Shown piece by piece: positions 7,801 through 62,478 of a DNA stretch of 64,000 nucleotides (within the stretch, counting starts at the first letter, position 1; each line of letters opens with the position of its first letter). Source of the DNA: Roseobacter sp. SK209-2-6 (GTDB lineage Bacteria > Pseudomonadota > Alphaproteobacteria > Rhodobacterales > Rhodobacteraceae). The position numbers were made by a program, and so were the translations under genes. The notes beneath the pieces were generated by a model. The model did not search any database, was not told where the DNA came from, and worked only from the letters and a program-made list of their open reading frames with translations. The stretch lies in contig NZ_AAYC01000002.1 in the NCBI RefSeq assembly GCF_000169455.1, forward strand, positions 372,001-436,000, in the 5' to 3' direction.

Positions 7801-7813
7801 AAGGGAGGCGCAT

Positions 7814-12994: not shown

Positions 12995-13087
12995 CATCAA
13001 GGTCTTGCCCGCCCTCTCCCTTCGGAGGTGTTGGCGGGCATTTCCTCCCTGTCAGACTGGCCGTGCCGCGTGCACGGCCCTTTTTTT
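12995..13087 (+). ncRNA. Candidate small RNA A (CUCCC-type, paralogous to the one at 62352)
   Basis: An intergenic transcript unit inferred from structure. The first hairpin is TGCCCGCC (13006-13013) with GGCGGGCA (13033-13040), with an inner CTCC/GGAG stem. A single-stranded tract follows, CCTCCCTGTCAGACT (13044-13058), anti-Shine-Dalgarno-like. The end is a terminator stem GGCCGTGC / GCACGGCC with a 5-nt loop and seven T (13059-13087). No gene lies upstream on this strand. The tract and terminator match candidate B (13 of 15 positions in the tract, same stem start GGCCG). The 5' end is approximate, placed after a TTATAT-like hexamer. Comparison with AbcR/ar15, ar14 and CcsR families is warranted. 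Confidence 0.6.
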
Positions 13088-61297: not shown

Positions 61298-61399
61298 TAA
61301 CAATCATTTTTTTGAAGTTTTCCCTCGCGCCGTCGCGTAAAACTGATACAAATCCAAGATTTCATATAGGCTGCAACTGACTGATCGAAAGTGACGGAA

Positions 61400-62305
61400 A
61401 TGGACTGGGACAAGCTAAGAATATTTCACGCGGTAGCTGATGCGGGCAGTTTGACCCACGCCGGGGATAAGCTGAACTTGTCGCAATCTGCAGTCAGTCG
61501 GCAAATCCGCGCACTGGAAGAAAGCCTGAACGCGACCCTATTTCACCGTCACGCCCGTGGGCTGATTCTGACTGAACAAGGGGAGCTGCTTTTTGACGCG
61601 ACAAAATCCATGTCCGCCCGGCTGGAGGCTGCCTCTGCCCGTATCCGCGACAGCGAAGAAGAGGTCTTTGGCGAGCTTCGCGTTACCACCACGGTTGGCT
61701 TTGGAACGCTTTGGTTGGCGCCGCGCCTGACCAAGCTCTACGAGCAATATCCGAATCTCAAAGTGGACCTCATGCTGGAAGAGCGTGTTTTGGACCTTCC
61801 GATGCGCGAAGCAGATGTTGCAATCCGGATGAAAGAGCCGAGCCAGGCGGATCTGGTCCGCAAACGCCTGATGACGGTTCAGATGCGCCTCTATGCCTCA
61901 CGCAAATACCTGGATGAACACGGCACCCCCGCCACTGTGGATGACATCGATAAGCACCGCCTGATTTGTCAAAACCAACGCTCTGCCCAGGTTGGGTCCG
62001 CCTCTGTTCTGGTAAAAAGCCTACTGACACGAAACCCAGCCTCTCTACTGACAGTGAACAACTACTTTGGCGTGCTGCAGGGGGTCCTGCATGATTTGGG
62101 CATTGGTATTCTACCGGACTATGTAACCGAAGAATTTCCGGAGTTGGTCGAGGTCCTTCACAGCGACGAAAACAGCGGTGTACCGGTTTATCTGGCCTAC
62201 CCAGAAGAACTTCGCCATTCGCAACGGGTTTCCGCGTTCCGTGACTTTGTCCAAACAGAGATCATGGCCCACCGCAAGCACATGAAAGAGCTAGGAAAAC
62301 TATAG
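61400..62305 (+). CDS. LysR family regulator, LsrB/VtlR-like
   Basis: A 301-residue LysR-type activator. The N-terminal helix-turn-helix is MDWDKLRIFHAVADAGSLTHAG and QSAVSRQIRALEESLNATLF, followed by HRHARGLILTEQGELLF, all strongly similar to the LsrB/VtlR group of Rhizobiales. The effector domain (about 90-295) contains LRVTTTVGFGTLWLAPRL and DLPMREADVAIRMKEPSQADLVR. In Rhizobiales LsrB/VtlR sits next to and activates AbcR small RNAs. Here a candidate small RNA lies 50 nt downstream behind a T-N11-A palindrome. ATG 61400 (MDWDK) is preferred over GTG 61391 because family proteins begin there. Divergent from indolepyruvate oxidoreductase. Confidence 0.85.
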   Translation: MDWDKLRIFHAVADAGSLTHAGDKLNLSQSAVSRQIRALEESLNATLFHRHARGLILTEQGELLFDATKSMSARLEAASARIRDSEEEVFGELRVTTTVGFGTLWLAPRLTKLYEQYPNLKVDLMLEERVLDLPMREADVAIRMKEPSQADLVRKRLMTVQMRLYASRKYLDEHGTPATVDDIDKHRLICQNQRSAQVGSASVLVKSLLTRNPASLLTVNNYFGVLQGVLHDLGIGILPDYVTEEFPELVEVLHSDENSGVPVYLAYPEELRHSQRVSAFRDFVQTEIMAHRKHMKELGKL

Positions 62306-62317
62306 GATTTCCATAGC

Positions 62318-62334
62318 TATGCACACAATGCATA
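62318..62334 (+). promoter_or_regulatory. T-N11-A palindrome (LysR-type site) ahead of small RNA B
   Basis: TATGCA-CACAA-TGCATA is a perfect 6-bp inverted repeat that contains TGCACACAATGCA, a T-N11-A LysR motif. It starts 13 nt after the LysR gene and 35 nt before the proposed RNA. The position fits activation of a promoter lacking a good -35 hexamer. Confidence 0.6.
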
Positions 62335-62351
62335 TCGGGAATGATCTTATC

Positions 62352-62478
62352 AAAGGGTTAAAACCCTTGAAGGGGCGAATGGCTGACCCTAAATGGAGCT
62401 TATGAAGACGGTGGCTAGCGCCACACTTCATACCTCCCTGTTGGACTTCGGCCGAGCTTAGTGCTCGGCCTTTTTTTT
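62352..62478 (+). ncRNA. Candidate small RNA B (AbcR-like, CUCCC-type)
   Basis: An intergenic RNA inferred from structure and context. First hairpin AAGGGTT / AACCCTT (62353-62368); second hairpin ATGAAG...CTTCAT (62402-62431) enclosing GTGGC-TAGC-GCCAC; then single-stranded CCTCCCTGTTGGACT (62433-62447), anti-Shine-Dalgarno-like; then terminator GGCCGAGC / GCTCGGCC with 5-nt loop and eight T (62450-62478). It lies just downstream of an LsrB/VtlR-like LysR gene, the position of AbcR RNAs in Rhizobiales. The tract and terminator match candidate A at 12995. The 5' end is approximate. Confidence 0.68.

Follow-up and report, generated by a model that had tools for sequence, protein, structure and literature searches.

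The segment downstream of the LysR gene in the window, meaning the whole 64,000-nt stretch of DNA that was analysed, is very probably a SorY-type small RNA gene with its own promoter, and from sequence comparison the adjoining LsrB/VtlR-type LysR regulator most likely activates it. This kind of RNA is already known; the link to the regulator, the near-universal conservation of the pair and the shared regulon appear to be new. In the literature covered, which did not include the founding SorY and SorX papers, we found nothing relevant on SorY together with LysR, LsrB, VtlR or AbcR, and neither a LysR linkage nor the palindrome described below was mentioned for SorY; the founding papers may mention the LysR neighbour. 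The regulator gene occupies 61400-62305 on the plus strand (alternative GTG start at 61391) and encodes the Pfam domains HTH_1 and LysR_substrate. Its open reading frame ends at 62305, as a sequence-only reading of this DNA had placed it. That reading had also called the protein LsrB-type, which agrees with 9hh1_A being the nearest solved chain (E 2.7e-74, compared to 5.9e-29 for the runner-up); sequence comparison thus supports an LsrB/VtlR-type regulator closest to A. tumefaciens LsrB. At class level, 133 of 240 genomes gave a single LsrB match at E<=1e-60 and 107 gave none, that is, at most one per genome.

The regulator and the RNA were found together throughout the 148 genomes drawn at order level, every one of which is listed under the same family. 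The LysR orthologue was present in 148/148, and a SorY-type RNA was located on the same strand no more than 2.6 kb downstream of the LysR gene, again in 148/148. An exact 14-mer, CCTCCCTGTTGGAC, was found 100-338 nt past the LysR stop codon in 138 of these loci. The remaining ten comprised G109, with a one-mismatch core at 103 nt, two loci with exact cores at 843 and 1348 nt, and seven with a match to our model R1 on the same strand, 0.9-2.5 kb downstream.

The RNA itself covers 62401-62478 on the plus strand. Its start was placed near 62401 by alignment to SorY of R. sphaeroides, whose 5' end was mapped at 1,632,642 (PMC6238624), giving a predicted transcript of about 78 nt and not the roughly 120 nt that had been proposed from the letters. 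Folding of 62401-62478 gave -33.8 kcal/mol with a z-score of -4.9, and none of 200 shuffled sequences was equally stable. Two main hairpins were seen where three had been described, since the AAGGGTTAAAACCCTT hairpin belongs to the promoter DNA, where it overlaps the -35 element. The 5' hairpin (62401-62432, plus strand) is variable in sequence and kept in structure, and it is followed by the core ACCUCCCUGUUGGACU (62432-62447, plus strand), a mostly single-stranded anti-Shine-Dalgarno stretch. The CCTCCC tract that the sequence-only reading had pointed out lies in this mostly open core at 62433-62438. The strong terminator of the same reading was recovered by a terminator scan at 62450-62478 on the plus strand, as a hairpin at 62450-62470 and a U run to 62478. 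The core was unpaired in the centroid fold, the minimum-energy fold placed a 2-bp CC/GG mini-stem within it, and its mean unpaired probability had a median of 0.69 across 138 relatives.

A comparison of the stems across lsrB loci, which had been proposed as a check, showed that the closing stem of the 5' hairpin was kept in 136/138 loci compared to 26% in shuffles. Individual positions of this hairpin were occupied by several pair types in the per-sequence folds, a count biased towards pairing, as every sequence was scored on its own fold. Applied to the MAFFT alignment A1, RNAalifold returned two pairs and no covariation; because the 5' hairpins resist alignment by sequence, it was replaced by per-sequence folding and shuffles. 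The A and U that flank the 14-mer were invariant in 46 RNAs drawn from the 138 loci with an exact core. The RNAs of alignment A1 were chosen for an exact core, which by itself makes the 14-mer invariant among them.

Two Rfam families describe RNAs of this kind. The SorX model RF02784 matched 62386-62476 with 49.8 bits against a cut-off of 46.6 (E 4.2e-9). The SorY model RF02651, run at a relaxed threshold, matched 62405-62478 with 54.8 bits, below its cut-off of 111. Since only 1 of 394 family genomes passed the RF02651 cut-off while 362 of the 394 had a match at E<=1e-4, this cut-off recognises near-identical copies only. The sole pass was in genome G094 (C4:1632645-1632727, 115 bits), next to the published 5' end of SorY, and a second R1 match of the same genome at C4:2598257-2598301 fits the published SorX cut site at 2,598,224 (PMC6238624). 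The two matching coordinates point to G094 being R. sphaeroides 2.4.1 or a very near relative. The LysR match of G094 ends at 1632473 and its SorY match begins 172 nt later, which makes the same LysR gene the upstream neighbour of SorY there; the window is arranged alike. Judged by locus and core, and not by the RF02651 match, the RNA of the window is orthologous to SorY. Published work reports that SorY has its own promoter with a mapped start (PMC6238624) and that it co-precipitates with Hfq.

Two models of our own were used beside Rfam. R1 was built from Rhodobacterales RNAs and has mostly sequence content, a consequence of the unalignable 5' hairpins; it scored the window RNA at E 4.4e-14, by construction, and some of its matches, for example L221, look terminator-only. 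R2 was built from 28 non-Rhodobacterales RNAs downstream of lsrB, and it found the window RNA (E 5.2e-7) together with all 28 other Rhodobacterales loci given.

The genome of the window contained three clear members of the family. One copy, at C26:307859, scored 88.7 bits with RF02784 and follows a gene for an OmpR-type response regulator (Pfam), and it is likely the true sorX; the window RNA does not lie in the 3' UTR of ompR-1. The other two are in the window, the RNA at 62401-62478 and a more distant member at 13021-13087 on the plus strand, with the core UUUCCUCCCUGUCAGACU (R1 E 8.6e-5; R2 E 4.5e-6; RF02784 41.1 bits, below cut-off). The latter is located between a HerA-type ATPase gene on the minus strand and an IalB-family gene (Pfam), and the 250 nt before its core contained neither the palindrome nor a promoter of the same type. 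A pair of adjoining SorX/SorY-type matches about 70 nt apart was also observed in another genome (G001:C3:381883-382115).

Upstream of the window RNA, the palindrome TATGCA-N5-TGCATA (T-N11-A; also ATGC-N7-GCAT) was confirmed at 62318-62334 and is our proposed LsrB recognition site. It scored 8/8 in 93 and 7/8 in 43 of 138 loci, compared to 1.4% and 12.7% in shuffles, and its centre was at -74 to -76 from the putative start in 125/137. A promoter, CTTGAA (62366-62371) N17 CTAAAT (62389-62394), spans 62366-62394 on the plus strand in a conserved register: TTG-N19..21-TA at a fitting distance was present in 138/138 loci, with N20 in 126, compared to 12.9% in shuffles. Anchored at the putative start, the promoter consensus was CTTGAW-N17-CTAWWT, and the upstream consensus was GCYATGCR-N5-GCATAGCGG-N2-WTGC. 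A generic sigma-70 scan returned no promoter, and the element differs from TTGACA/TATAAT. It resembles both the house-keeping and the RpoH elements of Alphaproteobacteria as quoted in PMC8844928.

In the nine loci where the RNA was displaced from the LysR gene, the palindrome (six exact, three with one mismatch) and the promoter preceded the RNA in 9/9; both stayed with the RNA and thus belong to its promoter. The same observation bears on the idea that the hairpins are simply the 3' end of the LysR mRNA. No terminator was found in the window between the LysR stop codon and the RNA, so that LysR transcripts may end at the RNA's terminator. However, a 3' end would not account for a conserved promoter and palindrome that stay with an RNA 0.8-2.5 kb away, or for the start of its own that was mapped for SorY (PMC6238624), and in R. 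sphaeroides a GC-rich hairpin could be seen by eye between the LysR stop codon and the SorY promoter. We consider a bare mRNA end extremely improbable.

One half of the palindrome is shared with a sequence that resembles the LsrB/VtlR box. The published box is GCAT-N3-TG-N3-T (PMC7486931, PMC8844928), and at 62330-62342 on the plus strand the window has GCAT-N3-GG-N3-T, which agrees at every fixed position but one (T to G). Across 125 loci, G9 and T13 were present in 125/125 and the complete GCAT in 100/125, and position 8, the published T, was G in 90/125 and T in 6/125. Relative to the putative start the box would occupy -71 to -59, compared to -61 to -49 in PMC8844928, that is, 10 nt further upstream.

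The changed base is one of the points in favour of a different arrangement, in which the RNA is SorY, the LysR protein represses it from the palindrome or another LysR-type protein occupies that site, and RpoH factors provide the main input. LysR proteins are capable of repression, and the control of SorY is known through RpoHI and RpoHII (PMC5036791, PMC8307010), the available text of these papers naming no LysR protein as its regulator. In contrast, a site centred at -75 leaves the -35 and -10 elements accessible, as an activator site does; in the Rhizobiales, AbcR and small-protein genes are activated by LsrB/VtlR (PMC8844928, PMC7486931, PMC12595884), and the box precedes the same partners here. 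Repression or a different binder is on balance rather unlikely.

The second of these partners emerged when 20 genomes were scanned with the pattern ATGC-N7-GCAT-N2-C-N-G-N3-TG, position 8 being left free. The exact box gave 68 sites in 19 of the 20 genomes, one to seven in each, and the reversed-pattern control gave none in 20/20. Fifteen of the 68 were SorY promoters, and 17 preceded a DUF1127 gene, one per genome in 17/20, with the gene start 102-158 nt from the start of the site. These second sites were picked partly by mutual likeness, and 17/20 counts genomes with at least one such site and not all sites. DUF1127 was confirmed by Pfam in 17/17 of the downstream proteins; Pfam was used in place of a regular expression that missed true members. 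There was no exact box at a DUF1127 gene in 3/20 genomes and none at SorY in 5/20. The other 36 sites were at neither SorY nor DUF1127; of 13 that were inspected none had a DUF1127 gene, and some look coding. A search with one mismatch allowed gave 19-70 sites per genome compared to 1-7 in the control and was excluded from the counts.

In the window's own genome, a box at C8:2350-2374 (L383) lies 122 nt upstream of a DUF1127 gene. A further exact box in this genome, at C18:97588-97612 (L401), has a possible 58-residue open reading frame at 104 nt with no Pfam match. In G094 a DUF1127 gene lies behind C4:692789. In Agrobacterium and Ensifer, the published box was found before 3 of 12 DUF1127 genes. 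VtlR was reported to activate abcR1 and atu1667 directly in A. tumefaciens (PMC7486931), and in B. melitensis AbcR2 and three DUF1127 genes were placed under VtlR (PMC12595884). That this pair of partners recurs in the Rhodobacterales under an almost identical box is the best evidence we have, by sequence and by analogy, and suggests the window LysR as a candidate binder. That LsrB drives an anti-Shine-Dalgarno small RNA is something we infer with good support, because AbcR and DUF1127 make up the known VtlR regulon.

In the scheme that we propose, for which we infer the exact start, binding by the window LysR, activation over repression and the target class, the LysR protein would bind the ATGC-N7-GCAT palindrome, whose centre lies some 75 nt ahead of the start. 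A further half-site, GCAT-N3-GG-N3-TG, would extend towards the -35 element, the arrangement expected of a LysR activator. Transcription, by RNA polymerase carrying either an RpoH-type or a house-keeping sigma factor, would begin at about 62401 and yield an RNA whose mostly single-stranded 16-nt core has the 5' hairpin on one side and the terminator hairpin on the other. The core would pair with the Shine-Dalgarno regions of mRNAs and so silence uptake transporters, and a small DUF1127 protein encoded at another place in the genome would be under the control of the same LysR. SorY was reported to limit malate import and SorX to affect spermidine uptake in R. sphaeroides (PMC8307010, PMC5036791). 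As to targets in the window, the sequence-only reading had singled out AGGGAGG at 7802-7808 as the livF ribosome site, and it does precede the start codon of livF by 5 nt. As a target livF is a weak candidate, since GGGAGG was kept in 7/11 livF starts of the same genus (own included) and is simply a good ribosome site; this comparison was made within the genus, starts outside it not being comparable, and G711, in which the gene is cut off, was left out.

The RNA had been described as AbcR-like and the whole as the Rhodobacterales version of the LsrB-AbcR circuit. The type of the regulator and the palindrome as a promoter element of the RNA held, the box and the DUF1127 partner mirror the Rhizobiales regulon, and the RNA was not of the αr15/AbcR kind by the sequence tests made. 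The Rfam scan proposed at the time listed no ar15 (RF02345) match to the window up to E 10. Across 22 Rhizobiales loci the best R2 match was at E 0.2 and the best R1 match at E 0.0095, and the window RNA was therefore rejected as αr15/AbcR on sequence. The AbcR motifs M1 (CUCCCA, in hairpin 1) and M2 (GUUCCC, between the hairpins), described in PMC5461406, are both absent from 62401-62478, and there is a single RNA copy beside the window LysR, whereas two in tandem were seen at 7 of the 9 Rhizobiales loci that were scanned. A search with RF02345 across 230 genomes of the class gave no matches, but the controls also gave none and the search was uninformative. It could still be argued that the RNA is a true member of the αr15/AbcR family that diverged in the Rhodobacterales. 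It has the position behind lsrB that ar15 had in 9/9 Rhizobiales loci scanned directly, it shares the layout of hairpin, single-stranded anti-Shine-Dalgarno stretch and terminator, and 12 of 13 R1 matches up to E 10 in the 22 Rhizobiales loci were on the sense strand behind lsrB. Set against the missing matches, the missing motifs and the single copy, true membership seems very unlikely.

Outside the family, 67 further alphaproteobacterial loci were compared. The exact palindrome was found within 420 nt after lsrB in 32 of them (shuffles 0.2%), and in the next 420 nt in 1/67. A related RNA, marked by a block with no more than three changes from GAAGCCTCCCTGTT, was present behind lsrB in 42/67 (shuffles 1.9%; next 420 nt, 3/67), and block and palindrome occurred together in 29/67. 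R1 gave 27 matches at E<0.1 in 25 of the loci outside the family, 27/27 of them behind lsrB on its strand. Rfam returned matches below threshold in eight class-wide loci, chiefly SorX, SorY and suhB, and no match over any cut-off in 20 class-wide loci; a literature search with the letters CCUCCCUGUU returned no papers. The hexamer CTCCCA (CUCCCA in the RNA, equal to the AbcR motif M1) was observed just before the CCUCCCUGUU stretch in 36 of 42 class-wide RNAs (L170-L236, downstream of lsrB). Locus L209 had three R1 matches, 188, 486 and 721 nt after lsrB, and repeat copies were also seen in L193, a tandem expansion that recalls AbcR1/2.

A common origin for these loci can be entertained with about even chances. 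The unit of LsrB, palindrome and anti-Shine-Dalgarno small RNA, with its DUF1127 regulon, would be ancestral to most Alphaproteobacteria, and SorY, the ACGUCUCCCAGACGUGAAGCCUCCCUGUU RNAs behind trxB-lsrB and the rhizobial AbcR would be descendants or replacements of one small RNA at one locus. There would then be one circuit, to which a redox-cysteine input was added later in rhizobia.

The regulators themselves differ in this respect. C144 and C273 of LsrB were discussed as a redox pair (PMC11975290), and 9hh1 has Cys at 144, 236, 244 and 273, matching the LsrB of that paper. Residues 144/273 were C/C in 77/77 proteins of the rhizobial set and V/A in 30/30 Rhodobacterales, so that rhizobial LsrB carries the redox cysteines and the Rhodobacterales LysR lacks both; therefore, the sensed signal must differ from that of rhizobial LsrB. 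In the 67 other alphaproteobacterial loci, C144 was present in 7 and C273 in 1, and the pair is thus a marker of the rhizobial branch and not of the orthologue group. The redox switch attributed to the cysteines of LsrB cannot serve the whole group as its input. The gene context differs as well: by a motif scan, trxB was upstream of lsrB in 79/80 loci of the rhizobial set and 25/27 other loci of the class, compared to 0/30 in the Rhodobacterales.

SorY, studied for photooxidative stress and malate import, and AbcR, studied for nutrient uptake in symbionts and pathogens, have hitherto been treated apart. The locus evidence suggests that one regulator, at a shared genomic position, probably governs both. 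SorY thereby gains a new candidate activator and a candidate binding site, and a two-part regulon of small RNA and DUF1127 is predicted across the Rhodobacterales. The class-wide RNA, which was without an Rfam match over cut-off in 20 loci, can now be named and tested.

Compared to known systems, the window RNA is closest to SorY of R. sphaeroides (RF02651), with which it shares the locus, the ACCUCCCUGUUGGACU core, the two-hairpin layout and the promoter register, and from which it differs in the sequence of the 5' hairpin. SorX (RF02784), which is processed from the ompR-1 3' UTR, has the same core; in contrast, a promoter and a palindrome of its own set the window RNA apart, and neither was found within 250 nt upstream of the genome's sorX copy. 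The suhB/MmgR model (RF00519), of the same clan as αr15, gave a weak match of 20 bits around the core of the window RNA, below its cut-off of 41. Compared to AbcR, the window has one RNA with one anti-Shine-Dalgarno motif and a changed base in the box, and homology of the RNAs was not established by the sequence tests. What the window shares with AbcR1/AbcR2 of the Rhizobiales (αr15, RF02345) is an orthologous regulator, an adjoining small RNA, an upstream LTTR box, the predicted anti-Shine-Dalgarno mode and the predicted co-regulation with DUF1127.
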